The notes under the pieces: model-generated | Told to the model about the DNA's origin: nothing | Database searches by the model: none | What the model saw: only the letters and a program-made list of their open reading frames with translations | Part shown: positions 5,713 through 64,000 of the stretch, piece after piece | How the letters are laid out: every line of letters begins with the position of its first letter | How positions within the stretch are numbered: position 1 is the first letter of the stretch | Assembly (NCBI GenBank): GCA_014871385.1 | Contig: CM026423.1 | Span: 19,519,690 to 19,583,689 of the forward strand | Origin: Ceratodon purpureus | Taxonomy: Eukaryota > Streptophyta > Bryopsida > Pseudoditrichales > Ditrichaceae | DNA: 64,000 nt | Direction: 5' to 3' | Program-made: the position numbers and the translations under genes

Positions 5713-6560
5713 TTAACCCCTAAAGGACAATAGTCCTAGAATGGGCTTTTTTGAAACTTGGGCATGTACCTACCGTTGCAATTTGAATCGTGATTTTCTG
5801 AAATTTTAAATGGAGGTGTGCCGTTCCGAGAGCTCCGCGTGCATATTTTTATTTTTCAATTCCGACATCGGGATCAAAAGTTATGAAGGTTTAACTGTCA
5901 AAAGCTGCTCGTTGGGCAGCTGCTGAAATTTTCTAAGCCACTGTGAATGCAGCAAATTCTGCCCAAAACTGCCCAAATCTGCCCAAAGATGAAACTTCGA
6001 AATTCCACCAAAAATTGAGATTTTGATATTTTTCAAAATTAAAAATTTCTATTTATAGAAAGGCTGTAGAGCATGTTTCCACGGTTCGGATTTTCAATCC
6101 AAGAATTTTTCATATGCTATTTTTATTGTCAAAAAACGGCCTTTGTATGTGAATTTCAGCATACCCCCTAGCGGAAAGTGATTTTTTTGGAAACCTTCCA
6201 CAACTTTTTTGAATATGATATTTTTTGGACATGTACCTAACTCAATTAGAAACAATAATATGGAGAGATTCATTCCATATGTACTTTTAAAAATGGTTTT
6301 TTGGGCCTTCAAAACTCTGCAGTCCCCTTTCTTTGCACGGAAAAAAAAACTTGTTTTCTACTTTGGACGTTATGATCTTGCAATGGGTGAAGAATAAGTG
6401 TGTGAGATTTGGTGGACATGTAGACATAGAAGTTAGCTTCAAGATCTTACGGTTAGATGTACTAAAAAAGACCCGAAGTTTGCAAAATCCACCTTGCTTT
6501 GAAGAGGGGCTATTTTGAGGCAGTTTTGATGAAAAATACCCTCAGAACTTTAGGGGTTAA
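5713..6560. mobile_element. family A non-autonomous DNA element, copy 1
   Basis: The element proper (5717-6556, 840 bp) starts CCCCTAAAG and ends CTTTAGGGG. It is flanked on each side by TTAA, consistent with a 4-bp target duplication. It has no meaningful open frame. The interior has short iterations of CTGCCCAAA at about 5950-5990. Three further copies are recognisable at 11201-12356, 28466-29325 (opposite orientation) and 40813-41735. TTAA duplications occur in piggyBac, Kolobok and Sola2 elements. The CCC start suits piggyBac, but no transposase is present to decide. Confidence 0.8.
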
Positions 6561-10970: not shown

Positions 10971-12393
10971 TACCTTACGTCAATAGCAGGTTTGTTCACA
11001 AAGAGTTCTAAAAAAGAAAACAAAAATATGGAAATTATTAAGGATGGAGAAACAAAAAAATGATAAATTATTATATATATTTTAATCCATTTAAGGCCAT
11101 TTTTAGTCATTTTTTGAAGAAAAGAATATAAACAAGAAAAAAAAATTAAAAAATTTGGGAGACAAACCTTATTTTTCAAAAAAATGAGATATTTGTTTAA
11201 CCCAAAGGGACAATTTGGCAAAATGGGGCTTTTTTGGAGTTTGGGCATGTAACTGCAAATGCAATTTGAACTCAGATTTTATGAAAGTTTTAATGAAAGT
11301 AGGCCTTGGTGAGAGCTTCGTGTTGGTATTTTTTATTCTAAATTCCGATGTCGGAATCAAAAGTTATTCACCTCTGAACCTCAAAAGCTCCTCCAAGGGC
11401 AGGTTTGCAAAGTAAGTTAGCCAATGAGATTGACAGTGAATGCAGCAAATTCTACCCAAAACTGCCCAAAACTGCCCCAAATTACCAAAATCTGCCCAAA
11501 GACAAAACTTTGAAATTCCACCAAAAATTGAGATTTCGATATTTCTCGAAGAAAAAAAAAAAATCTATGTATAGAGAAGGCAGTAGAGCATGTTTCCACC
11601 GTTCGGATTCCTAATCCAATTTTTTTTCATATGCTATTTTTATCGTCAAAAACGGCCTTTGTTTGTGAATTTCAGTATACCCCTAGCGAAATATGATTTT
11701 TTTGGCAACCTTCCACAACTTTTTTGAATATGATATTTTTTGGACATATACCTAAGGTACAAACACCTATAACCGACAACTTAAAGCATTTCAGCATATC
11801 AAAGCTTGGATTATCGACAAGGAGATAATTTTGGTTCATAGGAAAATAAGATTCATGAAGAATGAGCATTTTTCCATGAATTATCTCCCAATATAGAAAT
11901 TTGTACAATTTTTCAAAGTGAAAAGTACTTCCGAACCAATAACCAATATATACAAATGAGCTACATCTGTTCTTTCATAATCTAGGAATTAGAATATATC
12001 GGCTCTTGGTCATCTGTTGACTATGGGTGTCTCAACCTTAACTCACTAAGGAACAAGAATATGGAGAGACTCATTCCATATCTACTTTTAAAAATGGTTT
12101 TTTGGCCCTTCAAAGCTCTGCTGCTGCCTTTTGGCGCAGGAAAAAAAACTTGTTTTTCAACTTTGAACGTTACAATCTTGCAATTGGTGAGGAATGAGTG
12201 TGTGAGATTTGGTGGACATGTAGACATAGAAGTTAGCAACAAGATCTTACAGTTAGACGTACTAATTAAGACCCCAGTTTTGCAAAATCCACCTTGCTTT
12301 GAAGAGGGGCTGTTTTGAGGCAGTTTTGATGAAAAATACCCTCACAACTTTAGGGGTTAAGGATGAACAAACCTGCTATTGACGCAGAAGGTA
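10971..12393. mobile_element. family C element carrying a nested family A element
   Basis: The left end TACCTTACGTCAATAGCAGG, continuing TTTGTTCA, is inverted at the right end (TGAACAAACCTGCTATTGAC, then GCAGAAGGTA). A 21-bp core matches perfectly. The consensus (TACCGTAACATCATAGCAGG) is shared with elements at 40689-41870, 42232-42495 and 43487-43685. There is no transposase. The stretch just left of the nested element (GAGACAAACCTTATTTTTC) matches the sequence near the right end of the 41-kb copy, showing where the pre-insertion element continued. Confidence 0.75.
11197..12360. mobile_element. family A element, copy 2, nested
   Basis: TTAA at 11197-11200 and 12357-12360 flanks a 1156-bp element. 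The left terminus is slightly decayed (CCCAAAGGG) and the right terminus is CTTTAGGGG. Compared with copy 1, the interior carries an extra block of roughly 290 bp at about 11757-12040, a further nested insertion. It is inserted within the family C element at 10971-12393. Confidence 0.8.
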
Positions 12394-16718: not shown

Positions 16719-18723
16719 AACAGAAGAGGAAGCTGGAAGCCCAAGGAAGGAGAATATTACCTTCTCGAGGCGAACCTGAAGGGAAGATTCCCAGAATCAA
16801 AGCCCATGGGGAGTCACTACTGGCCACGAAGATGCGCCATCCACCAGATCCACAATCAAAGAAGCTCCGAAAATTCCACGCCAATTCAATGATCATCGAG
16901 TCATTGATTCATTGCTCATTCACTCCAGTCTCGGAACCTGCCGCGCTGGTCCCGCACTGTAGCAAGCTGTGCACATCACGCAGACGAAGCGGCAACGTAG
17001 CAGGTGTCGGAGAGATCCCCGGGAATATCCGCACCCCGCTCCAGCATATGCCAAGGAGCAGCCCTGCAGATCCTCCGGCATATCCCCAAATCCCCTTCGC
17101 CAAACCCATGCGCACCGCAGCCTCGCAAGCAAGCTTGCAGCTTCTGCAATCCTCCAACACTTGTCGGCGTGGTCAACATCGCAGCTCAGTCACGGGTATT
17201 ACTGATTATCAGCCCACCCACACGCCACCACCATGCCTGCACTATTTCCACCTTTCATCCTTTTACTTTAAACCCGAGCCTGCCGTAACTCCTCCGCTTG
17301 CTTGGATAAGTTTGTCCCCAATTTGGCGGGTTTCCCACCGCTAGCTGCGTCCACTTTGCTGCCGTCACGCGACGAAACAGTGCCGAGCTCCAACCGAACA
17401 TCGTCACGGAATGTAATCATTTCATGCATCACGGGTTCTTCGTACAATTGTCATCTCTGTTTCCTTACACGGCTTGTGGGAGAATTTCGTGTGAGTTACA
17501 GGTATGGAATATTTTCCAATGAATCTTGTACAGTTTGAAATTTCTTTAATAGTTTTTACTCGGTTCTGGTCTTTCAAGGTGAAGTTCTGGTTCGGGTAGA
17601 AAGTGGGTTGGGTTCGTGGTGGAAATAATTCTTTGGTGGAAAAGTAGCATGAGATCATTACCACGAAGCTCGAAAGTTTCAGACAATTTTTATAATTGTT
17701 TCATTGGTGTTACTTTTCCAGGTTTACTAGGTTTTTTTCCCCCAGTTGGGTGATTGCGTTGCAGGGTTAAAAGATGGAGTTTTAGGGGTGGTAACTGAAA
17801 CCCGAGTTTGGAGTTGGGAGCAAGTTGGGAGTTTTGGTGAGGGTTGAGAGGATTTTTCGAGGTTTTGCGAGATTTTTGAGCTGCTAATTCGGGTGATTTT
17901 GTGAGGGATGGGGAGAAGCCAGGGGTGAAGGCTCGCCGTGCCCACGAGGTGGCCCTTGCCTGCGGCTGTCCAACTTGACGGCTGTCTATTTGTGTTTTTT
18001 CACGTTTTGACGAAGCCTACTCCTGGGCACAGTAACAACGTTTTGAACCCGTGGCGTCTTCCGTACTCTGCAGTTGTGGTCCATCCCCTGGTTGTTTCAA
18101 GTGTTTGTTTTTTACGAACAAGTGTTCGTTTCCTCTGCCTGCGAAAGTGAACAGTGAAGGAATCTCGGTAACTATACCACGGTTGGAACTTGGGTGGAAG
18201 TTTGAGCGATGAGCGCTGGAGCAGTCAAGGCCGATGTCCGACGTAGCAATAGAAATTCTTACGCTGCGCGTCATTAGCACTGTACTGCCATCAATCGCCA
18301 CTTAGTGATAAAGCTAGTGAGCCTGCCAGTGTTTCTCATCAAATTTTGCTGTTAGTTGTTCAGTTGCAGCGCATTGGAGTCGTCCTTTCTGAGAGTTGCT
18401 TCTAGTATCGGTGCCACACAAGGCTGTAGTTCGAGGATTTCACCCTGCATTACCACTTCTCAATCTCTCTTCCTGCAGACAACTTCTAGTGCAAATTCTG
18501 TCTTTAGAACTTTTCAATTTCCCCGTCGGTTGGAAGTACGTTTGTCGGAGGTTGCAGACATTGGGTGAGGCTTAATCTTCTGTATTGCATGGGAAGTTTA
18601 GCATTGGTGACGATGAGGGAGGGTGTTTGAGAGCACCTCAACTGAAGGTTGCGGTTGTAGATTGTACATAGAAGAGAGGGTTGCTTAGAGATTTCCAGAA
18701 GAGTTAGTCGAGCAGCCGAAGAG
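16719..18723 (+). promoter_or_regulatory. upstream and 5' leader region of the permease gene
   Basis: Base composition changes here from AT-rich to GC-richer, marking a genic island. No conserved protein is encoded in any frame. The stretch probably contains the promoter, a long 5' untranslated leader and perhaps a leader intron (for example CAG/GTATGG near 17500), but I cannot place the transcription start. Several upstream ATGs with short frames precede the coding start, for example at about 18590-18640. Confidence 0.4.
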
Positions 18724-20903
18724 ATGGAGGAACACGGACAGAGTATTCGTAGTCCTCCGCCTGGGATTGCTCTCCTGCGGAAGCTGAGGGGAGGGAAGGA
18801 TTTCTCCTACTCGACATACCGATTTTCGGTGTTGGCGATCACATTCATCGCCTACGCCTTCTTCCACATGTCGCGCAAGCCGCCCAGCATCGTGAAGAGC
18901 GTGCTAGACCCAGAGGGCTCGGTGATCTCGACGTTAGGATCTCACCACTACTTGCTTCCGGAGTCAATCACACCCTCGTTCGAGAAATTGTTCCACAATG
19001 GCTCAGCAGGAGGCTACGCCGCGGGGAACAAGATCAAGGAAGGTGGGTGGGCGCCCTTCGATGGCAAGACAGGGAAGAAGAGGCTGGGTGAGATTGACGT
19101 TGCGTTTCTCGCCTCGTATGCGTTCGGCATGTACTTCGCAGGGCACTTGGGTGACCGCCTGGACTTGCGCAAGTTCTTGTCCATGGGCATGGTCGGCAGT
19201 GGCTTCTTCGTGTGCTTGTTTGGCTTGGGGCGTTACTGGAACATCCATCGGTTGGAGTATTTCTTACTGGTGCAAATGGCGGCCGGGCTATTCCAGTCCA
19301 CCGGATGGCCCTCCGTGGTTACCATCGTGGGTCACTGGTTCGGGAAGAAAAAGCGAGGTCTGATCATGGGCATCTGGAACGCACACACCTCCATTGGCAA
19401 CATCCTCGGATCCTTGATTGCTGCCGCTGTGCTCAAGTATGGATGGGGCTGGTCTTTCGTCATCCCGGGCGCCATTTTGGCCGCAGGTGGTCTCTTGGTG
19501 TGGGGCTTCCTTGCTGTTGACCCTCACGACGTGGGCCTGCTATCGCCGAGTGAGATTGAAGCTGCAGAAGGTGAGAGAAAATTTCCTACCCTATGGTAAA
19601 TTATGGATGCATTTCCTCCCTTCAATTTTTAGTACGATTGGAGTTTCTTTCTGCATGGGTGTTGAATGGACTCTGTGTGGTGATGCAGCCGATGAAGCAT
19701 CTTCTCAAGGAGCAGAAAATGGGGAACCTCAGTCGGAGCAGACAGGGTTGCTGGCAGAAGAGGATAAGAGTTTGAGTAACAAGGAGGTGGATTTGGAGTC
19801 TCAGGAGCAGAAGGTTCCGGAACTGGGAAGGAATGACCCTGCTGTGGGATTCCTGGAGGCATGGCGAATTCCCGGCGTTGCCACTTTCGCCTTGTGTTTG
19901 TTCTTCTCCAAGCTTGTGGCGTATACTTTCCTTTACTGGCTCCCATTTTACATCAGACAAACACGTAAGTTTCACATCTTACTTCGTGACCTACATCAGT
20001 TCCCTTCTGCAGCTTGTTTGTAGTGTAAGAATTTCATGCACAATTTTTTAACAAGTTTTTTTGGTTTGTTTTGACAGCCATTGCAGGGGAGATCTTAGAT
20101 GAGCAAACCGCAGGGCAATTGTCTACTTTGTTCGATGTTGGGGGTGTGGTTGGAGGAATCTTGGCCGGTCACCTCTCAGACAAGATGAATGCAAGAGCTA
20201 TCACAGCTGCTGGATTTATGTACTGTGCAATTCCTGCGCTCTTCCTCTACAGGACCTATGGCAGCGTTTCCTTGCCTGTCAATATCGCTCTGATGATGCT
20301 CGCTGGGATGTTGATCAATGGCCCTTACGCTCTCATCACGACCGCCGTTTCTGCCGATCTTGGGACGCACAGCTCATTGAAAGGAAATGGGAGAGCGTTG
20401 GCCACTGTCACAGCTATCATCGACGGAACCGGGTCTTTGGGGGCAGCAATTGGGCCTTTGCTTACAGGATTCCTTTCCGGCCAAGGATGGGGCGCAGTCT
20501 TCATCATGCTCATGATGGCTGCTCTGTTTGCTGGCCTGCTCTTGACGAAGCTGGTCGTTGCCGAGGTCGTCGAGAAGCTTGTTAAATACCAACGACTTCA
20601 GAATCTCTCCGACTCTGCACGCGCCGAATTGACTGGTAAATTTTTCCACCCAAACTCTTTCGGATAATTAATTAGGTTTTTCTGAAGCCATGTCTTCATG
20701 ATCCTCTGTTTGCACATTCCATGTGACGTTGAAGGTTATTCAGTGGAATGAAGATCCAGCAGATGGTTTTCATGTTGCTCTTATCTGCTGGATTAATCTT
20801 TCTGTCAAAGTACCATGATATGACATCATGCCTAGATGAATCTTAAACTTACAGTTGTTGATTGTTTGTACCAGATTTGTTGCTAGGAGGGGGAAGGAAA
20901 TGA
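18724..20903 (+). CDS. glycerol-3-phosphate permease, MFS organophosphate:phosphate antiporter family
   Basis: Four exons are supported by canonical splice sites and continuous frame: 18724-19570, 19689-19964, 20078-20635 and 20875-20903, giving 569 residues. The first ATG (CCGAAGAGATGGAGG) precedes a short cytosolic N-terminus, and about twelve hydrophobic segments follow. Family hallmarks include [55 protein letters not shown] (the MFS loop 2-3 motif), [19 protein letters not shown] and [20 protein letters not shown]. The central loop, mostly in exon 2, is acidic and poorly conserved. Plant homologues (the G3Pp family) are membrane proteins thought to exchange glycerol-3-phosphate for phosphate, and several are induced by phosphate starvation. 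Whether this copy acts at the plasma membrane or a plastid cannot be read from sequence. The last exon adds only nine codons. Confidence in the family is high; the exact substrate is inferred. Confidence 0.93.
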
Positions 20904-26822: not shown

Positions 26823-26847
26823 CTTGTGGTGTCAGGAATGTTATCTT

Positions 26848-26881
26848 GTGAGCGGTGAGCAGTGAGCAGTGAGCGGTGAGC
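26848..26881. repeat. left subterminal heptamer array
   Basis: Five consecutive GTGAGCG or GTGAGCA units (the last one incomplete). The same 34-bp array occurs inverted at 31929-31962 at the other end of the element, and again at 59224-59257 in the second copy. Arrays of short subterminal repeats are typical transposase-binding sites. Confidence 0.85.
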
Positions 26882-27719
26882 ACTAAATGTATAAATTTTT
26901 GACTATTTATTTGAATATTTTGAGATGATTTTGCATGACATGGCATATATGGAACCTATGACCGTGGAAGGTGGTTAAGTGTTTTTTCCAAAGATAATGG
27001 CTTCTAAATTGATCAATGTAGAAATTTACACCCTATTCATATCCAAGTGAATTGTGATTTTTTTAACATATATTTTAGCAATTCCACGTCATCAAGAAGA
27101 AGGAAAAAAAAGAATAAAACTTATTAAATGAAAAAATAAAACCACCCCCCCGGCCCCCCTTCCGAAACAGTCAGACAATTGATCAGAAACTGATCAGAAA
27201 TTGCAGGCTAAGAAAGCCCTTCCTTCATTGTACATCGACTCCCGGCCCCATGCCCCCTACCGACCCGCGCCCCCGATCCCATCCCTTGTTCATCCATTTT
27301 TCATCAAGTATCATCCAATTTTTGGATGACTGTTTTTTAAGAACCAGAAATTATTAACTGCGAGTTGATAACTCCTAAAATAATTTGTATTTTTGAAAAC
27401 CGACTTCGGATTTGGGTTTGTAGAGGGGGTATTTACGAAACGGAGAAGGAAAAAAAGGTTGAGAAAAGTTTTGAGAAAATCACATTTTAATGTGGATGCC
27501 TTCAAACTTTAACCAAGGGAAATTCAACTTAAGAATGAATTCGTCCGAGCTCTATGATTTAGTCATGCATGTAGTCAATGTTAAAATGTAGGGCCGCTAA
27601 AGAATTTAAATAGGAGTAAGGTAAAACGAGGTTACGGCAAAATATAAAATCTAAAGCCAAACTTAATATCTGATATATAAGTAGGGAAAACATAGCACTA
27701 TAAAGTACCTATGCAATGA

Positions 27720-29413
27720 TTAAGTAGACATATCGTCATCGCCACATGTACCAATCCAACCATGAGAAGAATCACTATCACTAGATAAAACCACTCTAGC
27801 AACTTTTGCAGCTATATCAAGATAAATCTCAGCGTCACGAAAAATACTCTCTCTACCAGATGAAATACATGGAGAAGGAGCAGCTACATAAACTTGAACC
27901 TGCATCTCAGCATAATGAGGAAGCTCAAGAGTTCTAATTGGACTTCTTATCTTGCTAAGATGGCGCGAGATAATAGATCCACCAATGTGATTGTTCATCC
28001 TTTTTCCCCACCGACTGCACATAAAAGACTAGAGAAACTATGGCAGCAGGCATGCTAGTCTCTAAAGGAGAAATGCCAACATGAGACATCAACTTCTCTG
28101 GTCCTTCCTTTAAAACAAGTTTTGCCAACTCCCTATTCCTTGTTGCAACTTCCTTCTTGAGCTTGACCTCTTGCTCCTTCTCATTCTTCTTGTCCTCCTT
28201 CTCCTTCATCCTTGCCTCAGCCTCAGCCTCAGCCTTCTTTTCTCCCAGCTTTTTCCTTTGCCTCTCAGAAAGAGATGCATCATGACCAACCTCCTAGGCA
28301 TCCTCCTCCAAATTCACCGTATTCTCATCCACAAGCTGCATCATTAAATTCTCACAACTTGCATTAAGAACTACCTCCTCCCCGGAACAAATATCATTCT
28401 CCTTGACTTCAAGGTCCCAAGGACACAAAAGGATGTGAGGAGCTCCAAAATGGCTTCTATCATAACCCCTAAAGTTCTGAGGGTATTTTTCATCAAAACT
28501 GCCTCAAAACAGCCCCTCTTCAAAGCAAGGTGGATTTTGCAAACTTAGGGTCTTTTTTAGTACACCTAACCGTAAGATCTTGTAGCTAACTTCTATGTCT
28601 ACATGTCCACCAAATCTCACACACTTATTCCTCACCCATTGCAAGATCGTAACGTTCAAAGTAGAAAAACAAGTTTTTTTTCCTGCAAAGAAAGGGGACA
28701 GCAGAGTTTTGAAGGCCCAGAAAACCATTTTTTAAAGTAGATATGGAATGAATCTCTCCATATTATTGTTCCTAATTGAGTTAGGTACATGTCTCAAAAA
28801 TATCATATTCAAAAAAGTTGTGGAAGGTTTCCAAAAAAATCATTTTCCGCTAGGGGGTATGCTGAAATTCACGTACAAAGGCCGTTTTTTGACAATAAAA
28901 ATAGCATATGAAAAATTCTTGGATTGAAAATCCGAACAGTGGAAACATGCTCTACTGCCTTTTCTATAAATAGAAATTTTTATTTTTGAAAAATATCAAA
29001 ATCTCGATTTTTGGTGGAATTTCAAAGTTTCATCTTTGGGCAGATTTTGGCAGATTTGGGCAGTTTTGGGCAGTTTTGGGCAGAATTTGCTGCATTCACA
29101 GTGGCTTAGAAAATTTCAGCAGCTGCCCAACAAGCAGCTTTTGACAGTTAAACCTTCATAACTTTTGATCCTGATGTCAGAATTGAAAAATAAAAATATG
29201 CACACAGAGCTCTCAGAACGGCACACCTCCATTTAAAATTTCAGAAAATCACGATTCAAATTGCAACTGTAGGTACATGCCCAAGTTTCAAAAAAGCCCA
29301 TTCTAGGACTATTGTCTTTTAGGAGATAATCTGTAAATAGGCATTCATTGCTAGAGACATCCACCAACTTCTTGAAACGCTACGGAATATATTTTTTCTC
29401 AATGGCACCCTTG
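27720..29413 (-). pseudogene. deleted and decayed copy of the methyltransferase-like transposon gene
   Basis: Read on the minus strand, this retains part of the N-terminal region (KGAIEKKYIP, a stop, then RFKKLVDVSSNECLFTDY, 29330-29413), the Lys/Glu-rich coiled coil and LKEGPEKLMSHVGIS (about 28070-28240). It also retains the last exon (27720 to about 28015; IIGGSIISRHLSKIR-like, ELPHYAEMQ, EIYLDIAAKVARVVLSSDS). Everything between, that is the whole methyltransferase domain and the penultimate exon, is missing. The deletion joins exon 2 just after the codons for AAIV to the end of the last intron, whose TGTGCAG acceptor survives. A family A element (28466-29325) interrupts the reading frame, and the 5' side stops at about 29413 against hairpin-associated repeats. 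The copy cannot make a functional protein. Confidence 0.85.
28462..29329. mobile_element. family A element, copy 3, inserted in the transposon gene
   Basis: It runs opposite to copies 1 and 2 and spans 28466-29325 (860 bp). The left terminus is CCCCTAAAG and the right terminus is decayed (CTTTTAGGAG). ATAA flanks both sides. The intact paralogous gene at about 61957-61985 reads CTCTGATAATCTGTAAA with a single ATAA at the same place, so it serves as the empty site and shows a target duplication of 3-4 bp. Confidence 0.88.
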
Positions 29414-29538
29414 ACATGAAAGCCCTCGACAAGAGCTTTCCAAAAACATACAACAAGCCATATTTCCAAGAAAAAAATAAAATCTCATCATTTTCCATGC
29501 GAGTTGTCAAAAAAAGCGTCAAAATCCCACCCACCCGA

Positions 29539-29564
29539 GGGTTGTCTCGGATCTGAGACAACCC
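29539..29564. repeat. perfect short palindrome
   Basis: GGGTTGTCTCGG followed by ATCTGAGACAACCC forms a nearly perfect 26-bp palindrome just outside the large hairpin. It shares the TCGGAT centre with the recurrent CCTCGGATCCGAGG motif. Confidence 0.75.
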
Positions 29565-29638
29565 CTTTGGTCCAAACTTTTACCCACTTCATATGCTCTA
29601 CCATGAAAAATATTGCACAAAGACACCATTAGAAATTT

Positions 29639-30598
29639 CTCAACTATGCTGATATTCTGACAATGCTGTTTTGAAATCTTCAAATTGGCACTACACATGG
29701 AGATTTTCTCCAAATCTTTGATGTAATACATCATTGGAAAGCCCTCGACGAGAGCTTTCCAAAAACATACAACAAGCCATATTTCAAAAAACAAAACAAA
29801 ATCTCGTCATTTTCCAAGCGAGTTGTCAAAAAAAGTGAATACAAGTGGCACCCCCAATCCATCCCTCGGATCCGAGGGGTGCCCCCAAGCTCTGACTTTC
29901 ACTCGCTTTTTTGCTCCATGTGGGCTCAAGCTCAATGTTGGAGGCTCAAATTTATCTGCTTTTCAAAAAAAAGTGAATGCAAGTGGCACTACCAATCCAT
30001 CCCTCGGATCCAAGGGGTGCCTCGGCCAAGTATTTTTTTTTTCTTTTTTGAGTTCTTGGTTACGATTCTCACTCACTGCTTGAAGTTAAAAAACAGAATA
30101 TGTGTGAGATTCTACCCTCGGATCGGAGGCAACAAAATCAAAGTAGTTAACTCCAAACAGAACGTTAGAATCGTAACCAGGCACTCAAAAAAAGCAAAAA
30201 AAAATATTCGGCCGAGGCACCCTCCGATCCGAGGGATGGATTGGTAGTGCCACTTGCATTCACTTTTTTTTGAAAAGCAGATAAATTTGAGCCTCCAACA
30301 TTGAGCTTGAGCCCACATGGAGCAAAAAAGCGAGTGAAAGTCAGAGCTTGGGGGCACCCCTCGGATCCGAGGGATGGATTGGGGGTGCCACTTGCATTCA
30401 CTTTTTTTGACAACTCGCTTGGAAAATGACGAGATTTTGTTTTGTTTTTTGAAATATGGCTTGTTGTATGTTTTTGGAAAGCTCTTGTCGAGGGCTTTCC
30501 AACGATGTATTACATCAAAGATTTGGAGAAAATCTCCATGTGTAGTGCCAATTTGAAGATTTCAAAACAACATTGTCAGAATATCAGTATAGTTGAGA
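29639..30598. repeat. long hairpin: inverted arms of about 430 bp
   Basis: The left arm (about 29639-30070) and right arm (about 30166-30598) are inverted copies that look more than 90% identical by eye, separated by a spacer of about 100 bp. Each arm carries the words AAAAACATACAACAAGCC, CACTACACATGGAGATTTTC and two palindrome-bearing blocks (CTCGGATCCGAG or one-base variants). A direct repeat of the AAAACATACAACAAGCC region also lies at 29420-29470. The hairpin consists of sequence resembling the region upstream of the methyltransferase-like gene, not of its coding part. Confidence 0.88.
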
Positions 30599-31928
30599 TA
30601 CCTTTTAGTTTTTTGTTGAATAATTTTAAAAAGTTAATACATTATGGATCCCTTTAAGGTGTGAAGGCCACATTTATCTTTTCTAACTTTCAAGAACTTT
30701 TATGTGTTTTAATCACTTTCAAGTTGGATGCCTAATTTTACTTATCTCAGAATTCAATAAACATGTGATTGTTAAATCTCTTTTGGATTCCTACGTCACT
30801 TTGTTTGCTTTGAATGTATTTTTCATTGGAAATACACATACTTTTCTGGATCTTTGAGATTCAAGAGTTCCATGAAGTAGTTTAATTTTGAGTTTTATTT
30901 GATAGACGCTATGGAAAATTACCATATCATTTGTTTTGGGAAATAATACTTGTCACACGTTTTTGGAAATCTTTCTTTAGGCGTTTACTATCAAAATATC
31001 TTAATAAATATCTGAAGAAAATTTCATGTGTAGTCTCTATACCATAGCCTAAATATCAATACATTTTTTGGAATTTTAGAGATTTCATGCTTGATCATTT
31101 GGTTTTTTTTTAAATTTTTGCAATGATATCATAGATCCTTGGAAAGATAGGATGATAAAAGTACTGCAAACATGTTTACAAGATTTTCTGATATCCCTAA
31201 AAGATGGATTACAAAGTGGATACTTTCATCGACTTAGTTTCAACAAGGTTATGCGTTTTTTAGAACTTATTACACTTGATAGATTCCTTTGGAAGTTTCT
31301 TTGGATCTAATTGCAATTGCTAAAGAAGTTTACTTTGTGACTCATATTTTCAGCTAACGGTTTTAATTTAAATTCATGCTTAGTTTCTGTTTGAACTTAC
31401 CTTCTATAAATAAAGATCATATCTACTAAGTCCCTTCAATTATACAATATTTTAAAGTAAATCGTAAAAAAGGTATATTTAAAAACAAAAATTGTAATTT
31501 TGATACCAAATGTAATCGACTGTTGGATCTACCTTTCAATGTTATATCTTTTTGGAATTTTATTTTCAAAAGTGGATGTGAAAGAATACTCTCTTTGTGA
31601 ATCCAAAAAGGCCTTGCGTAAGAGTTTTTTTCCCACCTTGTTTGGGTTTTTTATCCCATTTCTTTTTTTGTGATAAATTTAGAATTTTTTTTCCTTTTTT
31701 CCTTTTTGGGGATTTGTTTAAATTCTTCCAATTTTTTTTTTCCTTTTTTGGTTTCTTTTTAAAAAAAATCAAATTTATTAACTTTCCACGGTAATAGGTG
31801 TCATTTATTATTTAATCATGTCTTCGAAGAAAGAGTTTTAAGATTATGGTTTTTGATAGAATTGGGTGAAAAGATTTAATTTTTGTAAAAAAAATTCAAA
31901 CTTTTTTTGGAAAAAAATGAAATTTTGT

Positions 31929-31962
31929 GCTCACCGCTCACCGCTCACTGCTCACCGCTCAC
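31929..31962. repeat. right subterminal heptamer array
   Basis: The inverse of the array at 26848-26881: GCTCACC and GCTCACT units, five in all. It lies 15 bp inside the right end of the element. Confidence 0.85.
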
Positions 31963-31987
31963 AAGATAGCGTCGCTGCTTGTGGTGT

Positions 31988-46600: not shown

Positions 46601-48863
46601 CTTCATCTGAATGCATTGTCAGTGCATCAGCAAATATTTCGCTAAAGTTTTCAATGGTGGTCACATCAGTTGGTAGTATCCCTGCCTCAAATCCTTAAGT
46701 ACGACATGCACTATGCATCACCAATTGCATGTTGTCTTCCTAATTCAAGTATTCAGTGATGTCTTAGAGCTTGCAAAGTATTGATCAATGACACTGAACT
46801 CTTTTGGAGAAGAGACAAGTGACTCAGGACTTGTCATTCATGTTTTTGTAAGAGTGGTATGTCCTGTGCATTCAATGAGGTTACAAATTGTACATCAACT
46901 CAGTCATGGATTGTGAGTGATCCAGGGCCACCTGAAAATGCAGATGGGTGAGGGTTCACAAATGTGTTTTGAGATGCATGGTTTGGGCAACTATGGACAT
47001 TGGACACGTTGGCTGGCAGCTGACCTTCACAAGAGTAAGAAGTCCAGGACTTGCACCGCCCATTTTTCTGGTGACAGTGCACAGGATTACCAAGTCACAT
47101 ACAGGACTTGTACTCAGCATTTCCTGGTGCATTTTTATAGGTGCTGGACAGAGAGATTGATATTCTGCTCAAGAGATGACATGAGAGTCTCTTTGTCTGT
47201 CTATTTGAGTTGTCTTAACTCTTAACCCTGGTGGTGGGTCTCTTTGTTTTGTTCTTTTCTCGCTCCAAAGTTTTCATTGTTCCAAATTTCTGTTTTTTGA
47301 ACATACATGAGTATGTCAGAAGATGGCACAAAAACAGGAGTATATTCTTGAAAAGATTTTGAGCTATTAAAATCCTGATATGTCGAAGAGTGGCCTATTC
47401 ACTATTCACATATTGAAGTGGTTACCATCACCTCTACTGTGCATAAGTTAAGTGCAGGTGTCTGTTCTAACTTCTCAATCTGCTCATCTTGCTGGGGTTG
47501 AGCCTTCAATCATATTAATAATCGTTTCCTATATTGATGGAGTGCGTAGAACTACCCTGTCCAACTTTGTTGATCCCTTCCAGGCTTGCAGAGAAGTAAC
47601 AAAAGAGCACTGAAATCTTCAAAACTGTGTGAACAGATTCATCGAACTACAACTCTGAGTTTTTCAGTAGAGTCCCTAAAAATTCCTAATTTCAAGAACA
47701 TTGGTATCCTACACTCGTAATCAAAATGAATCATCAAATTTCAACGATTTCCTTGAATCAAACCTACTAATTGGAACACACTTGAACATATGACCATTGC
47801 AATTTGCATACACAAAGGAGTCCAGTGATAATAGTGAACAATTATACAATGAACACAAGTACATAATGAACACTACCGGTGTACAGTACACAACCACCGT
47901 CAACTTCAACAATCATATACAATCACTTGAACATGTTGTACTCAAACAATTAGTACATTGTACAAAATATGCATACATAACAGGGAAGCTTCAGAAACTG
48001 TTTCTTGCTCCCTATTAGTGTTCTACATCTCACGCTGTTGATACGGATAGCAAAAGATAATCCACTCATCAAAATGTTGATAGTTTTTGAAGCCACTACC
48101 TCATATCAACCAGATGCATTGTTACAAGCATATCTCTATCAACTCAGACCCCAAGAAATCAGTGCAAATGACCAAACTTCGCCGCAATGAAACTCCACCG
48201 AAGGCTCACCACCATCTTATTCCTCCTTCATCCTCACCTTCCAGCCCACCGCTCCACAAACCAGATAACCGCACGAGTATCACAGCCATATAAACTTGAC
48301 ATAAACCCTAGTATCATCTGACTATCTCCTGGTATCACCTGGGTATTAATTGAAAAGAGCATGTGTACTTGTCTGAAGCCTATGGAGATGGCTTTTCTAG
48401 ATGGAGACTAGAACAAGCCAACACTTGGAGGCCTTCTTCACTGAACCCAATTTGTCTCACTTCAAACTATGTGATAAGTTTTCATGTTGGAGATTTTGTT
48501 TGATGAAGAGTTGAATAGGATTTGTTTCAGTTTAAAGTGATATGGCTCTCTTTTGAGGAATTCATATTTGTTCCACTCTTTTGGAGCCTCGTTGGAGAAG
48601 AATTGTGTTGCATTTGGAGATGGAGATGGTGTTTCTGGATGAGGAGTAGGAGCAGCGAAGAAGGACGGTTTGCTAGACCTAATATTGGTCGCTTTGGATT
48701 TGGGTACTTCAGCTCCGGGAGGGATTTGTACTTGTTTGGAGCTTTGTTTTGGGGAGAATTCGGAGGAGTTTGAGGGATTTGAGGAGTTGGGTTTGAAGTG
48801 GGAGCAGGGGTTTGGGGGATTTTTGCTGTATGTGACATTGGGGAGGGGTTGGGTGCGGGAGAG
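43686..48863. other. long intergenic stretch and upstream region of the epoxide hydrolase
   Basis: No gene recognised. Words resembling family A termini occur at about 44960 (TTAACGCTTTAGGGTCCC) and 46325 (GGCGTTTAGGGGTTTAAA), with TACGGTTGGATTTATAAAA inside, so a heavily decayed relative may lie there. The last 400 bp become GC-rich and are probable promoter and leader of the downstream gene. Confidence 0.4.
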
Positions 48864-50195
48864 ATGGAGGTGCCAAGTGGGAAATTGCCGGACATCAGGC
48901 ACCGGATGGTGAAGGCGAATGGCATAAGTATGCACATTGTGGAGCAAGGCGAGGGGCCGACGGTGCTGCTGCTGCACGGGTTTCCGGAGTTTTGGTACTC
49001 ATGGCGGTTTCAGATTCCAGCGCTGGCGGAGGCGGGGTACCATGTGGTGGCGCCGGATCTGCGAGGCTACGGACAGACGGATGCGCCCAAGAGCTCGCAG
49101 CTGTACACTTCGTGCCATCTCGTGGGCGACTTGGTTGGCCTTCTGGACGCGCTGGAGGAGAAGCGAGTGTTCGTGGTGGGGCATGACTGGGGCGCCATGG
49201 TTGCGTGGGATCTCTGCCTCTTGCGCCCCGACTGCGTCAAGGCCGTGATCTGCTTGAGCGTCCCCTTCTTCCCCCGATCGCCCAAGGGCAGCTCCATCAA
49301 GGGCTACTACGAGACTCTTGGCGAAGGCTTTTACATGTGCAGGTGTGCATTTTCACTAACAGCCTTTAGGTTGTAAATTGAATGACAATGGATCTTGGCG
49401 AAGCTGTATTTGCATGTTGTTGTATGTCAACATGTAAGTTGGGTGATGGATAGTCGAATGATTTATGAGAAACTCTTTTATGATATTGTTTCATGGTTCG
49501 TGTACGTCATTGCACTGGCCTGTGAAGGGACTATTATCTACAGCTCGTTGATTGGAAATAAACTACTATCAATCGCTATGAACGTAAATACTTTTTAAGA
49601 TTTCCCTCGGAAATTCATATCTATTTCAGAAGTTCTAGGCAATTTTACCGTTGACAGTGCGAGTTCATCTGTTGATGTGTATAGATTCCAGAAATACGGT
49701 CGTGCGGAGAGGGACTTTGCTCGAATTGGGACCACTGCCACACTGTCCAAATTCCTTTTTCCGCCACGGACCAGCTTCATTGCTCCAAAGGACAAGGAGT
49801 TGATGGACTCAATTCCTATGCCGAAGAAATTGCCTCAGTGGATATCAGATGCAGATCTTCGGTATTATGCACAAACTTATGAAAAATCTGGGTGGACTGG
49901 CGCCTTGAACCTGTACAGAGCCATGGACAAGAGTTGGGAAATTAAGGCACCGTGGACTAGTGTTGGAGTGAAAACCCCGGCATTATTTATTGCAGGCGAC
50001 AAGGACATCGTGATGGGGTTTCCTGGGGTGAAGGCATATGTAGGTAGGAACTTCAAATCGTTTGTCCCCAATTTGAAGGAAATTGTGACGCTCAAGGGCG
50101 GTCACTTCATACAGCAAGAACAGCCAGAAAGGGTGAATGAGCTTCTTATTGGCTTCCTTAACGAGCAAACCCTCGCATCCAGCTCCAAATTGTAG
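48864..50195 (+). CDS. soluble epoxide hydrolase (alpha/beta hydrolase)
   Basis: Hydrolyses epoxides, in plants typically fatty-acid epoxides in cutin and oxylipin metabolism, to diols; a cytosolic enzyme. Two exons, 48864-49342 and 49685-50195, join in frame (CR/FQKYG) to give 329 residues, normal for plant sEH without an N-terminal phosphatase domain. ATG 48864 is the first in-frame ATG. Visible features: oxyanion-hole motif HGFPEFWYSWR, DLRGYGQTDAP, nucleophile Asp108 in VVGHDWGAM, cap-domain Tyr in NLYRAM, charge-relay Asp267 in AGDKDIVMG, and catalytic His300 in KGGHFIQQEQPE. All catalytic residues are present. Exon 1 is strikingly GC-rich and exon 2 much less so. No targeting signal is evident; the end SSSKL resembles a type 1 peroxisomal signal (SKL), so peroxisomal location is plausible. 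Confidence 0.93.
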
Positions 50196-51994: not shown

Positions 51995-52417
51995 CTAAAC
52001 TAGAACGCCTTGAGCAGCGCTCTCCTTCGCAGTCTTCTCCGGCACAACGTCGTCACCTTTCCCTCGCACCTTGATCTTGTACTTAGCCTCAAACGCGGCA
52101 AACTCCTTGGTCTTCTTCTCCAGCGCTTCCGTGAGCCGGGTAATCACTTCTTGCAGCCCCTCCTTGTTGCGATTCACAGCAGGCAGAACCTCCCCCACTG
52201 TCCGCTCCACCAACACACCACCAATCATGCGGAAACACTTCCGCCCCGGGTCCAGCGGCTGGATGGCGTTGATCACCAACTGATGCTCATTGAGCTCCTG
52301 CTCCAGCTCATTAATCTTACTGTACAGCTGATTCAGCTCACTCCGCATAAAGTTCCACTTCCCCGCCACCGCTTGCTCGTTCATCATCTCCATCTTGTCA
52401 CCTCCACTCTCCGCCAT
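51995..52417 (-). CDS. PFD2: prefoldin subunit 2
   Basis: A beta-type subunit of the hexameric prefoldin cochaperone, which passes unfolded actin and tubulin to the cytosolic chaperonin CCT. The single-exon frame encodes 140 residues, close to the usual length of plant PFD2. Two coiled-coil helices (about residues 18-50 and 85-115) flank the beta-hairpin segment, which contains the diagnostic block QPLDPGRKCFRMIGGVLVER and the following TVGEVLPAV. The tail is charged (VRGKGDDVV) and short. The start ATG follows a GC-rich upstream segment. Nothing appears broken. Open frames on the opposite strand are shadows. Confidence 0.95.
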   Translation of the reverse strand: MAESGGDKMEMMNEQAVAGKWNFMRSELNQLYSKINELEQELNEHQLVINAIQPLDPGRKCFRMIGGVLVERTVGEVLPAVNRNKEGLQEVITRLTEALEKKTKEFAAFEAKYKIKVRGKGDDVVPEKTAKESAAQGVLV

Positions 52418-59150: not shown

Positions 59151-59223
59151 AAGAAAAACATGATAATTGCCTATACAGTCTATACTATGCCAAAACTAGA
59201 GCGTCATCCAGGAATGCTATCTT

Positions 59224-59257
59224 GTGAGCGGTGAGCGGTGAGCAGTGAGCGGTGAGC
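59224..59257. repeat. heptamer array of the second transposon copy
   Basis: Five GTGAGCR units, as at 26848-26881, differing only in which units carry G or A at the last position. Confidence 0.85.
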
Positions 59258-60003
59258 ACTAAATTTTCAATTTTTTGACTATTTATTTGATATTTTGAAA
59301 TGATTTTGTATGACATGGCATATAGGGGACCTATGACCGTGGAAGGTGTTTTAGGGTACATTCCTAAAAGAATGGCTTCTAAATTGATAAATGTAGAAAT
59401 TTACACCCAATTCATATCCGTATAAATTGTGATTATTTTTTCATATATCCTATCAATTTCACGGTATGAAGACGAAGAGGAAAAAATAAAAAAAAAGGAA
59501 AAAAAGAAAAGAGGAAAAAATCAATAAATGAAAGAAAGAAAAAAGATTAAAAATAAATAATGAAAAGGAATGTAGGAAAAAAAATTTAAAAATGAAGGAA
59601 AATAAGAAGAAAAGAAAGAAAAATAAAGAAAACAACGAAAGAAGAAAAACATTGGAAAAATTAAAAAATTAAAATTAAAATAAAAGATAAAACATAAAAA
59701 GGAATTAATAGGGGTATTTGCATAATAGGGAAGGGAAAAATACATGAGAAAGGTTTTAAGAAAACCACATTTTATTGTGATGTCTTCAAACTGTAATCAA
59801 GGAATGTTCAACTTCTGAAAAAATAAGTACCATCTTTATAATTCAATCATGTACGAAGTGAATGTAAAATATATGGCCGGTAAAGAAATTCACACAGAAG
59901 TAGAGTAAAGTGAGGTTAAGGCAAAATATAAAATCCAAAGCCAAAGCTATCATATAATATATAAGTAGGGAAAACATAACAATATAGAGTAAATACGCAA
60001 TGA

Positions 60004-62665
60004 TCAAGTAGACATCTCGTCATCACTACCAGTACCAATCCAACCATCATAAGAATCGCTATCACTAGATAATACCACTCTGGCAACTTCTGCAGCTATG
60101 TCAAGATAAATCTCAGCATCACGACAAATGCTATCTCTGTCAGATGAAATAGATGGAGAAGGAGCAGCTAAATAAGCTTGAGCCTGCATCTCTGCATAAT
60201 GAGGAAGCTCTAAAGGTCTAAGTAGACTCCTTATCTTGCTAAGATGGCGCGAGATAATAGAGCCACCAATGTCATTCTTCAACGCTTTCTTCCGACTGCA
60301 CATGACAATTTCACAAGTTAATAAATACTGAGCTAAATTTTATTTAAATAATAAACAAGTGACCAATGAATGTAAAGACTTACTTACAAGAACGCTTGGG
60401 GGCAGTCTTCCTCTCAGGCTCATCGTCTGACTCAACCGAACGTTTCTTCCTCGGTGAAGGCACAGGAATTGGAGTGGACTCAACCTCCTCCGTGCTTGGA
60501 AGAAGAGGAAACAACACTTGATTGTACAAGGTGGTGTCTGACTCAAAGCCTATGACATGACGCCGGAGACTCTTGGATGCTCGAATGGAGGCACCTGCAC
60601 AGAAAATAGAGCTCCAAAACATAAGTAAAAATTATAAAATGAAATACAGAATATTTTCAAACAAAAAACAAAAAACAAATTAATACCTGTAGAAGCTGTG
60701 AGATCCATGACAATGTCATTCTCAACCGTGCACAAATCAATTAGAGCCTGCAAGAGGTTAGAAGTCTTCTCCCGTGCTCCTCTGAATGGCTCACCAGTCT
60801 CTGAATTAAATGTGAGAGAATCTGCAGTAATCAAATTAGTGCAATGTCCATCAGTGGAGAGCTTGATGCCTAGGGCTCCAAGCTCAGCCCTATCATGAAA
60901 CTGGAACTTAGACCTTGGAACACCCTCCTCCACATTCTCCATCTTGATGAAGCACTTGACCATGAAAGTCTTGTGCTGGCGTGGATAACGGTCTGGAATA
61001 GTCAATGGCAGGCCATTGATTGCAAACCACTTGGCCTCCTCCTGAAAGTTAGCCCACTCTGCCCAGGAAATAAGCTCATTCGAAATGAACTTTGAATCAG
61101 GATAAAAAACAATCAAAGCTCCATCATCCTGTAGAAACTGCATAGCAAATTCAAAATGGGCCTTAATCCATGAAGACTCCATTTTTTTCCCTGCTGGAAT
61201 CCTGGGGTGCTTGTTCCAGGAGGGAATCTCACCATCTTGTCCTAAACCTGGAACTGGTAAATCCTCTGGAACATCAAAAATGATGAGGTCCACAGCAGCC
61301 TCAGCCTCCTCACCCCCAAAATTCCTATCCTTGCTACCGAGATTCCCCTTGACCCAATGCTTGATCTTGCTCCAAATCTCAGGCTCATCCCCCTCCGATA
61401 AAGAAGTAAACAAATCCAAAATGCCCATAGGGCAATCATTGATGATCTCAACACTAGTGTCTACCTCATCCAACTGCGAGCATGGAATGGTGTAGATAGT
61501 CTGAGAAGGCATGGGGGTAGAAAAAAGAGGCACCTGAGTAGTTACAGGAACTATGGCAGCTTGCATGCTACTGCCTGAAGGAGAGATGCCAACATGAGAC
61601 ATCAACTTCTCTGGCCCTTCCTTCAAAACTAACTTGGCCAATTCTCTGTTCCTTGCTGCCACTTCCTTCTTGAGCTTAGCTTCCTGCTCCTTCTCCTTCT
61701 TCTTGTCTTCCTTCTCCTTCATCTTAGCCTCTGTCTTTGCCCTCCTCTCAGCCACCTTCTTCTTCTGTTTATCAGAAAGAGATGCATCATCACCAACCTG
61801 CGAGGTATCCTCCTCCAAACCCACCATGTTCTCATCCCCAAGCTGCTTCATCAAATTCTCACAACTTGCCTTAAGACCTCTCTCTTCCCCTGGGCATTGA
61901 TCATTCTCCTTGAGCTCAAGATACCAAGGACACTGAAGGAGATGAGGAGCTCCAAAATGCCTCCTCTGATAATCTGTAAAAATGCACTCACTGCTAGAGA
62001 CATCAACCCACTTCTTAAACCTCTGAGGAATATCCTTTTTGTCAATGGCACCCTTTACAACCAACTCCCTCCAGAAATACCTCAAGATAGCCCGCTTCAT
62101 TGCATTCTCAGCACCAGCTTGGTGGAGAAATGGCTCTTTCTTGGTAAAGGTACCAGCCTTAGGGAAAAAAGGCTTAAAGGCCCTGCCCCACAAAGTGATG
62201 GAATGAGCCTCAATCCATGAGCCAATATCATCTACAGGATTAGGTAAATCCTCTGTCCTCAAAACTATCATGTCCTCCTCTACAATCTTGTTATAACGAA
62301 TGACTGCCTCCTCCTCTAGCTGCAAATACAATCAATTAAAAAACACATAAGAATACATGACCAATTTCATGATGAAGAGTTATGTTAAACTGCAATAAGC
62401 AACAACTGTGAAATGAAATGCAAAAGCTTAAGAATTAGAAACTTACCCCAGCCCAGAATGCAGCCTGATCAACCCAAGGGCGGAGAACTAAATCAGAAGC
62501 TGGATGTGGAGGAAAATTGTACTCCTGCCGACTCTCCTTGCTCATATTCCACCACTTCAACCACCTCTCTTTGTACTTGGGAGAAACCTTAGCACTTGAA
62601 AAAAGCTGCAACTTTTCAGCGGTCATCTCTGCCTTATTATAAAATATGTCAAAGTGCCGGATAAT
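60004..62665 (-). CDS. transposon-borne protein with beta-class DNA-methyltransferase-like domain (5' end not seen)
   Basis: Four exons on the minus strand join in frame with GT-AG sites: 62447-62665, 60687-62319, 60384-60594 and 60004-60295, giving 784 codons. An acceptor (TTTGCAG) precedes the first, so more exons may lie upstream; the earliest ATG inside is at 62626. Order of parts: an unrecognised N-terminal region with WLKWWNMSKESRQEYNFPP and RFKKWVDVSSSECIFTDY; a Lys/Glu-rich coiled coil (coded about 61627-61779); then a methyltransferase-like fold. Motif IV region is VDLIIFDVPEDLP (about 61261-61293), motif V-like FLQDDGALIVFYPDS, then KTSNLLQALIDL leading to motif I, DIVMDLTASTG, completed across the intron by ASIRASKSLRRHVIGFESD. 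This is the IV-to-I order of beta-class N6A/N4C enzymes. DVPE replaces DPPY, so activity is doubtful. The C-terminus carries basic and acidic stretches. Confidence 0.75.
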
Positions 62666-63033
62666 CTGCAAATAAGAAGTCAAGCATCATCTTAGAATAA
62701 GATCATAAAATCTCCAATGACCTTATAGAAATACAAGTTCAATTATAATGAACTTCACGTTCTGATTATAAGGGAGAGTGCACAAAGATACAAATCATTC
62801 TGGATATGCAAAGCTCATGACTGCTTACAGAAATTCAATACAGATTCCTCATAACACACTGTCCATTGATCACCTCTGATAAAAGTCAAGATTCACTGAA
62901 AGAACAATTTAAAATGAAGGCACCACAATATTAAAAACGAATAGGGACCAAACCTCGAACTCAGCTCCACATCAATAGCACGGACTGATTGAATCAAAGA
63001 CGCCAACCAAAGCCCACACAACAAAAATAATAA
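62666..63033 (-). other. upstream intron or leader of the transposon gene
   Basis: No convincing exon is visible. The acceptor at 62666-62672 implies that a donor lies further upstream. Confidence 0.35.
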
Positions 63034-64000
63034 AATACCGAAGCTCGAGCTGAGCTCATGAGCCAGAGCAGAGACTTCAGCAAAAAAAAAAACCAACACT
63101 GCTGTGCGGTAGAGCAACCGCATCAGCAAGAACCAAAGTGTTTTGCCCCGGCCGAGGCACCCCTCGGATCCGAGGCATGGTCTGGGGGTGACCTCGGCAC
63201 TCACTCAAAACTCCAACCAGCCACAAAAATGGTTGCCTCTCATACAGGCAACCACAAAATTAAAAAAAAAAGGAACCGCGAGAGAATCTACAGTTGATCC
63301 TCTCCTCGGATCCGAGGACACACAAGACAGTTACAGGGAAGATACCGAAGCTCGAGCTGAGCTCATGAGCCAGAGCAGAGACTTCAGCAACAAAAAAAAA
63401 CCAACACTGCTGTGCGGTATAGCAACCGCATCAGCAAGAACCAAAGTGTTTTGCCCCGGCCGAGGCACCCCTCGGATCCGAGGCATGGTCTGGGGGTGAC
63501 CTCGGCACTCACTCAAAACTCCAACCAGCCACAAAAATGGTTGCCTCTCATACAGGCAACCACAAAATTAAAAAAAAAAGGAACCGCGAGAGAATCTACA
63601 GTTGATCCTCTCCTCGGATCCGAGGACACACAAGACAGTTACAGGGAAGATACCGAAGCTCGAGCTGAGCTCATGAGCCAGAGCAGAGACTTCAGCAACA
63701 AAAAAAAACCAACACTGCTGTGCGGTATAGCAACCGCATCAGCAAGAACCAAAGTGTTTTGCCCCGGCCGAGGCACCCCTCGGATCCGAGGCATGGTCTG
63801 GGGGTGACCTCGGCACTCACTCAAAACTCCAACCAGCCACAAAAATGGTTGCCTCTCATACAGGCAACCACAAAATTAAAAAAAAAAGGAACCGCGAGAG
63901 AATCTACAGTTGATCCTCTCCTCGGATCCGAGGACACACAAGACAGTTACAGGGAAGATACCGAAGCTCGAGCTGAGCTCATGAGCCAGAGCAGAGACTT
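63034..64000. repeat. 308-bp tandem repeat array
   Basis: The unit beginning GATACCGAAGCTCGAGCTGA starts at 63034 (307 bp in the first copy), 63341, 63649 and 63957 and continues past the window. Copies are virtually identical, differing in A-run length and one or two bases. Each contains two CCTCGGATCCGAGG palindromes and the hairpin GGTTGCCTCTCATACAGGCA plus ACC. The array lies upstream of the methyltransferase-like gene. Open frames through it are repeat artefacts. Confidence 0.93.
63162..63175. promoter_or_regulatory. recurrent CCTCGGATCCGAGG palindrome (first of six in the array)
   Basis: Exact 14-bp palindromes occur at 63162, 63304, 63470, 63612, 63778 and 63920 (two per 308-bp unit), and at 29864 and 30358 in the other transposon copy, with one-base variants near 30001, 30115 and 30221. 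In most, GGCACCCC or ATCCC precedes and GATGG or CATGG with TTGGGGGTG follows. The restriction of a 14-mer to the two copies of one element points to a binding site. Confidence 0.7.

Follow-up and report, generated by a model that had tools for sequence, protein, structure and literature searches.

A two-gene transposon family in the moss Ceratodon purpureus with a putative Mutator-like transposase and a methyltransferase-related second protein

Introduction

Mutator-like elements (MULEs) have target site duplications (TSDs) of 8-11 bp and often carry SWIM fingers and second open reading frames (excerpts of PMC6446971). In the Arabidopsis element VANDAL21, the protein VANC21 binds to a short motif located in noncoding sequence; arrays of this motif turn over as tandem repeats and also occur in VANC21 introns, and VANC is far less conserved than the transposase VANA (excerpts of PMC5735166). 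Fungal DNA transposons carry TET/JBP dioxygenases that are thought to help them escape silencing, and SET histone methyltransferases are present in some MuDR families of Phytophthora (excerpts of PMC12730594). Here we describe a transposon family of the moss Ceratodon purpureus, which has a genome of 360 Mb with U and V each larger than 100 Mb (excerpts of PMC8000587). The family was found in a stretch of 64,000 nucleotides of contig CM026423.1 (positions 19,519,690 to 19,583,689), referred to below as the window. No DNA transposon with an N6/N4-methyltransferase-like gene was found among the titles listed in searches of open-licence PMC papers.

The window holds two copies of the element, copy 1 (26833-31977) and copy 2 (from 59209). 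An initial annotation had proposed a DNA transposon family of unknown class that carries a methyltransferase-like gene and no visible transposase. We searched the host assembly (362.5 Mb in 151 contigs) and found that full-length copies contain two conserved genes. The reading that we narrowly favor is a two-gene cut-and-paste Mutator-like transposon of an undescribed lineage, in which the methyltransferase-derived protein would bind the 12-bp palindrome CTCGGATCCGAG and counter silencing in the manner of VANC. We infer all three parts of this reading: the superfamily, the palindrome binding and the anti-silencing activity.

Structure and copy number of the family

The two ends of the element, which the initial annotation had represented by a single terminus, are not identical: the left end begins with CAGGAATG and the right end with CAGCGACG, and GTGAGCR heptamers lie inside both. 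A 20-mer of the left end has 197 exact matches in the assembly, and the right-end 20-mer CAGCGACGCTATCTTGTGAG has 326 matches at up to two mismatches; the reversed control gave 0 in both cases. Pairing was analyzed for 100 listed left ends (of 197) and 67 listed right ends on contigs C1-C5 (of 326). Inward-facing pairs within 45 kb were obtained for 47 of these left ends at a spacing of 1.8 to 35.8 kb, and the same ends gave nine combinations in the wrong orientation within that 45-kb limit. Flanks were compared in 23 copies, comprising 22 of the 47 end pairs and one copy with slightly different ends. The 10-bp duplication is perfect in 17 of them, has one mismatch in two and does not match in four, one of which has a repeat apparently shifted by one base. 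The family is a DNA transposon with 10-bp target duplications, and the concern that its two ends might prove unrelated in other copies is dispelled by the paired ends and their duplications.

Full-length copies are about 13 kb long and carry their two conserved genes head-to-head. Copy 2 is complete at 13,577 bp, with both genes intact and its right end at C3:19592474 (window-equivalent 72,785). Its flanks, joined into a 303-bp query, gave 40 matches in a genome search in which 40 of 1268 candidates were scored: the two real flanks and 38 element-free junctions elsewhere at 77-83% identity. Since these 38 junctions are uninterrupted, the insertion of copy 2 took place in a copy of a different repeat, and the junctions are paralogous empty sites. 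No empty site was present among the element loci extracted locally; it was the genome-wide search that found them.

Copy 1 bears out the structure first described for it, with terminal inverted repeats of 56 nt that are 89% complementary, five GTGAGCR heptamers per end and CTTGTGGTGT in both flanks. It is a deleted, non-autonomous derivative, because its remnant of the methyltransferase-like gene is split by a 0.87-kb repeat and the transposase gene survives only as a C-terminal remnant. The likeness between the two copies had been put at the left 0.2 kb and a gene at the same offset. The common left part extends to 0.29 kb (85% identity) and gene pieces are also common, but copy 1 retains this gene as broken pieces only (27723-28473 and 29326-29445).

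Left ends that face each other at 16-20 kb were also considered as element borders and were ruled out by flank comparison. At copy A, the second left end sits in an inverted duplication that takes in the flank, so it is not an element border; the true partner of the left end is the CAGCGACG end. Around copy A (C1:23784400-23804900, loci L009-L011) the left end, the methyltransferase-like gene and the flank recur in this inverted duplication, which reflects a genuine rearrangement or else an error of the assembly.

The putative transposase

The first of the two genes encodes a protein of 1158 amino acids (aa). In copy 2 it consists of two exons (4627-6732 and 6835-8205 of L064, the locus of copy 2) and reads toward the right end. 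The protein is Cys/His-rich between residues 256 and 383. Motif reading gives D522-65-D588-130-E719, with C-x2-H after the second aspartate and N-x2-E at the third position, followed by a SWIM-like CxC-x19-CxH at residue 1091. The order D-D-CxxH-NxxE is typical of MULEs, and it is also seen in the MULE frames of the host genome itself. The protein is predicted to be a DDE-type transposase that recognizes the heptamer-bearing ends. A very divergent Mutator-like lineage is its most likely home, because the N-terminal Cys/His cluster, D-65-D, C-x2-H, N-x2-E and CxC-x19-CxH occur together with a 10-bp duplication.

A search with a 486-aa segment of this protein, in which 88 of 2486 candidates were scored, returned 89 rows at 88 loci, a lower bound. 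Full-length rows are 84-100% identical, and 55 of the 89 rows are stop-free. The earlier statement that no known transposase is visible thus holds in part: neither protein of the element reaches a transposase cut-off in Pfam or NCBIfam, but the longer copies do carry this DDE-like protein. None of the tests revealed a standard transposase of a known superfamily, although the 10-bp TSD and the D-D-CxxH-NxxE order resemble those of MULEs.

The methyltransferase-related protein

The second, METHYLTRANSFERASE-like gene is called MT-like (methyltransferase-like) below. In copy 2 it has seven exons with GT/AG splice sites, reads toward the left end and yields a 1119-aa frame; these exon borders are predicted, and the gene may in fact begin upstream of the first of them. 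The proposed relation of its product to DNA methyltransferases was confirmed. The spliced protein scores 29.3 bits against PF01555 (N6_N4_Mtase; cut-off 26.7) and its C-terminal domain alone 37.3 bits, and the unspliced exon alone remains below the cut-off at 14.1 and 15.8 bits. PF01555 is matched in all three clade representatives of the domain. Matches in PDB are weak, comprising DpnA, N4-cytosine methyltransferase, CcrM and MboIIA at E-values of 0.005 to 0.75, followed by unrelated complex I chains; a profile of the three clades matched DpnA at E 0.0015.

In the alignment with CcrM, motif IV precedes motif I, which is the beta-class order, and the DPPY of CcrM stands opposite DVPE. The catalytic motif IV of beta-class N6/N4 methyltransferases is (D/N/S)-P-P-(Y/F/W). 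Each of the three clade representatives of the MT-like protein has DVPE in its place; those of the two clades other than that of copy 2 are 63-66% identical to copy 2 over the domain. Since DVPE is the same in three clades, it looks like a fixed change and not like decay. The 1119-aa protein is probably a relative of beta-class N6/N4 DNA methyltransferases that has lost the canonical DPPY.

An active N6-adenine or N4-cytosine methyltransferase, for which the palindrome would serve as an epigenetic label, would agree with the beta-class fold and motif order and with the conservation of the motif-IV aspartate and second proline in all three representatives. The palindrome core also contains GATC and GGATCC, which are typical modification sites. 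However, DPPY is replaced by DVPE in the three clades and the FxGxG region of motif I reads TASTG, or NASTR in clade 2, and we consider an active enzyme very improbable.

The N-terminal region of the protein (L064:1487-2080, minus strand) has a conserved FYVWDGNHRHIAW stretch, which we take to resemble the DG-x-HR motif of ParB, as a lead only. Neither Pfam nor the PDB profile search gave a ParB match. A comparison of exon 5 with viral contigs found no relative. Among 124 phage records there were only weak partial methyltransferase matches, none of which covers 80% of the query; the best E-value among the ten listed phage matches is 8e-3.

The observed/expected (o/e) CpG ratio of exon 5 is very low in clade 1, at 0.13 in copy 2 and 0.14-0.22 in three other copies. 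For comparison, exon 5 of clades 2 and 3 has 0.51-0.56 and the transposase gene 0.62-0.73.

Selection and linkage of the two genes

The ratio of nonsynonymous to synonymous substitution rates (dN/dS) was calculated for copy 2 against two other copies. For the MT-like gene it is 0.170 with copy A and 0.154 with copy B; the transposase gene gives 0.112 with copy A and 0.086 with copy B. Both genes are under purifying selection. When aligned to copy 2, each of the other MT-like copies compared is frameshifted and has one or more stops; some of these defects are possibly alignment effects of true indels. The two genes are linked. For 65 of the 88 listed transposase loci, the 80 listed MT-like exons include one at a distance of no more than 40 kb, and a control shifted by 1 Mb gave one; a single row of the 89 was dropped from this count as the second piece of a locus. 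The head-to-head orientation is found in 62 of the 65 linked loci.

The rates of divergence differ between the genes. In two copies linked to clade 3, the transposase segment has 84-85% identity to its counterpart in copy 2, and the clade-3 MT domain has 63%, so by these comparisons the MT-like gene diverges faster than the transposase gene. Clade-2 MT genes are 97-98% identical to that of L061, which is itself 64% identical to copy 2. Transposases beside clade-2 MT genes are near that of copy 2 (for instance 94% at C5:19676857), and this combination suggests that the left half of the element may have been exchanged between lineages.

This pattern bears on the role of the MT-like protein, which the initial annotation had considered as a possible new mobility factor. 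It need not be one, as a second conserved protein with a DDE-like triad and a SWIM-like tail is available. The MT-like protein could still take part in transposition itself, for instance as a subunit for end binding or targeting, as its gene accompanies most of the listed transposase loci and is under purifying selection. Yet a separate transposase candidate exists, and the MT-like gene diverges faster and seems to be exchanged between lineages, as expected of a regulator. We therefore regard a subunit role as very doubtful.

The distribution of the family over the assembly was also noted. Contig C6, a putative sex chromosome, measures 110.5 Mb and makes up 30% of the assembly. In counts made by hand from lists of the best candidates only, it holds six of the 88 listed transposase loci and five of the 80 listed MT-like exons, and the family is depleted there. 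In the same kind of count, C6 accounts for 60 of 93 listed places that match the MULE profile PF10551 (transposase versus MULE, Fisher p 5e-17).

The palindrome and its arrays

The intron array of copy 2 lies between MT-like exons 3 and 4 and has two TCGGATCCGA cores per 308-bp unit. Altogether, 89 of these cores were counted in 22 elements, 19 of which have at least one, at a chance expectation below 0.01 per element. The window holds eight cores, all of them inside copies 1 and 2. The full 12-bp palindrome occurs 1882 times in the host genome, with eight occurrences of the reversed control. Among the first 50 listed palindromes, 39 fall within 16 kb inward of a listed end, in windows that make up at most 2.4% of the region over which these 50 sites extend.

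Array units differ between lineages. The clade-3 element at C8:13126738-13140018 (13,281 bp, target duplication AGACCATAGG) has, in a 4-kb piece of its intron, a 159-bp unit repeated 10.3 times. This piece contains 12 exact copies of the palindrome, and forms with one or two mismatches are absent. Only 21 bp around the palindrome are common to the units of this array and that of copy 2. When six arrays were compared, GGATCC was present in 15 of 15 best pairwise matches and CTCGGATCCGAG in six of six arrays. As in VANDAL elements, the moss family has a short motif in tandem arrangement, in arrays that differ from copy to copy and are also located in the MT-like intron.

These arrays might be structural by-products of tandem duplication to which no protein binds. 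Repeat units within one copy are indeed 99% identical, and copying has inflated the counts. On the other hand, different units in different lineages hold the same palindrome, and the 22 elements have 87 perfect sites, 20 with one mismatch and six with two, as compared to 0, 0 and 1 in the reversed control. We find the by-product explanation distinctly unlikely: because different units keep the same site, a function of the site explains the arrays best, and the MT-like protein is predicted to be what binds it.

Proposed mechanism and its weighing

Under the favored reading of a Mutator-like element with an anti-silencing protein, the 1158-aa protein would cut and paste the element via its heptamer-bearing ends. 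The methyltransferase-derived protein, which lacks the canonical catalytic motif, would have been kept as a sequence-specific DNA-binding factor and would read CTCGGATCCGAG in the fast-turning tandem arrays of its own intron. Once bound, it may hold two parts of the element, the promoter region between the divergent genes and the array in the intron, in an open or hypomethylated state. The element would then continue to be expressed or escape silencing marks, in parallel to the action of VANC on VANDAL. Depletion of CpG as a trace of methylation was alike inside and outside the elements, with o/e values of 0.44-0.63 in whole elements and 0.54 in the rest of the window.

Several results weigh against this reading. 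The DDE and MULE assignments of the transposase rest on motifs only, because profile searches gave nothing significant. The whole 1158-aa protein has no Pfam match up to E=10, PF10551 included. When it was searched in segments, only the Cys/His region was matched in Pfam, always below the cut-off (UPF0179 at E 0.076, IBR at 0.22, zf-Tnp_2 at 0.25). NCBIfam gave two rows far below the cut-off, and an alignment profile found no PDB chain. Hidden Markov models (HMMs) of six MULE loci from the same genome scored the candidate no higher than 999 shuffles, and hhalign against the six loci gave a probability of at most 0.2%. For the second protein, motif IV is changed in single copies (YVPE in copy A, DVPQ in copy B), and dN/dS between decayed MT-like copies reaches 0.67. 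The exact 10-bp core is missing in three of the 22 elements (L049, L059 and a 1.8-kb copy), and the tested end windows do not include 11 of the first 50 listed palindromes. Furthermore, palindromes inside one array copy each other, so the counts are not independent, and the binding itself is a prediction.

The profile results could also mean that the transposase lies outside the known superfamilies and that the family founds a new one, which has converged on long TSDs and a SWIM-like tail. The lack of an above-cut-off transposase match in Pfam or NCBIfam is in line with this, as are the scores on the own-genome MULE HMMs. In addition, PF10551 matches at least 93 places in the host genome (150 of 384 candidates scored), and none of them coincides, by eye, with the 88 listed transposase loci. 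Against a new superfamily, D-D-CxxH-NxxE, the SWIM-like tail and the 10-bp TSD form the layout of MULEs (for TSD and SWIM, excerpts of PMC6446971), and the comparison profiles are thin, with an effective number of sequences (Neff) of about 1.1 for the transposase. We judge a separate superfamily rather unlikely. Unlikely by a further degree is the boldest version of the proposal, a new cut-and-paste superfamily with 10-bp duplications whose repurposed methyltransferase docks on the 12-bp palindrome as a self-specific chromatin or anti-silencing system independent of VANC.

If the palindrome is a docking site, the family would represent the second case, of independent origin, of sequence-specific anti-silencing by a plant transposon, this time in a bryophyte. 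One protein and one 12-bp site would then be enough to test how transposons evade silencing without harm to the host, and the protein would offer a palindrome reader that is compact and derived from a methyltransferase. The transposase is a candidate member of a lineage not detected by present profile libraries, and such elements may go unclassified in plant genomes.

Features of the window

The coordinates of both copies are collected in Table 1. The internal inverted repeat of copy 1, with arms of 452 nt, carries palindromes, and the short relatives L055 and L052 contain related sequence. Another repeat family, with a length of at least about 0.9 kb, is represented at 28463-29332 (inside copy 1), 5710-6559, 11226-12359 and 58834-59002, and copy 2 adjoins, or lies in, a relative of this family. 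Three long open frames (18661-20664, 48783-50192 and 51998-52459) appear from their translations, by eye, to be ordinary host genes for a membrane transporter, an alpha/beta hydrolase and a prefoldin-like protein.

Table 1. Features of the two element copies, in window coordinates
Feature	Position	Strand	Remarks
Copy 1, left target duplication	26823..26832	.	CTTGTGGTGT; identical 10-mer in both flanks
Copy 1, left terminal inverted repeat	26833..26888	+	(GTGAGCR)5 at 26848-26882
Copy 1, remnant of MT-like C-terminus	27723..28019	-	residues 1022-1119, 77%
Copy 1, remnant of MT-like exon 5	28018..28473	-	residues 522-671, 70%
Nested unrelated repeat splitting the MT-like remnant	28463..29332	.	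93% to window 5710-6559
Copy 1, remnant of MT-like exon 5 beyond the nested repeat	29326..29445	-	residues 490-525, 70%
Copy 1, internal inverted repeat	29638..30598	.	arms 29638-30089 and 30147-30598, 94%; palindromes at 29866 and 30361
Copy 1, remnant of putative transposase C-terminus	31123..31289	+	residues 1099-1157
Copy 1, right terminal inverted repeat	31922..31977	-	heptamers at 31928-31962
Copy 1, right target duplication	31978..31987	.	CTTGTGGTGT
Copy 2, left target duplication	59199..59208	.	GAGCGTCATC; same 10-mer at both sides
Copy 2, part inside the window	59209..64000	.	complete element, right end outside the window (locus L064)
MT-like exon 7 with stop	60004..60295	-	
MT-like exon 6	60384..60594	-	continues motif I region
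MT-like exon 5	60687..62319	-	motif IV position FDVPEDLP to motif I MDLTASTG
MT-like exon 4	62447..62665	-	exons 1-3 outside the window in L064
Intron tandem array, 308-bp unit	63035..64000	.	six TCGGATCCGA cores in 63164-63931; continues in L064 1-810

Comparison with known systems

Among modification enzymes, CcrM, DpnA and MboIIA share with the moss protein the beta-class domain, as judged by sequence profile, and the motif order IV...I. The moss protein differs in the change of DPPY to DVPE, in its long N-terminal region and in being encoded by a eukaryotic transposon. The fungal KDZ (Kyakuja-Dileera-Zisupton), IS3EU, hAT and other elements with TET/JBP genes are, in the excerpts cited above, likewise DNA transposons that gained a DNA-modification enzyme. 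In contrast to them, the moss family has a methyltransferase relative instead of TET/JBP, a TSD of 10 bp and not of 6-8 bp as in the three named groups, and no matching transposase family. More specifically, KDZ elements have a TSD of 7 or 8 bp, and the 1158-aa protein has no Pfam family; hAT elements have one of 5-8 bp, and no hAT transposase was found in the Pfam scan. As for DIRS elements, the two genes of the complete copy gave no Pfam match to a reverse transcriptase or a tyrosine recombinase, and target duplications are present.

The family resembles MULEs in its 10-bp duplication, which falls in the 8-11-bp range given in the excerpts of PMC6446971, in its inverted ends and in the extra antisense gene that MULEs often have. 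Motif readings add the SWIM-like tail and the D-D-CxxH-NxxE order. It departs from them in a transposase without a PF10551 match, though this profile finds many places in the same genome, in short and unequal 56-bp ends with heptamer arrays, and in the methyltransferase-derived second protein.

With VANDAL/Hiun elements, according to the excerpts of PMC5735166, the family shares an accessory gene that evolves faster than the transposase and motif arrays, also intronic, that vary between copies. The moss family is known from sequence alone, and its accessory protein, unlike VANC, is a methyltransferase relative; PF01555 is the sole family above its cut-off in the Pfam scan, and neither DUF1985 nor DUF287 appears there. 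Finally, the motifs of VANDAL elements change, whereas the moss palindrome is constant across the lineages compared.

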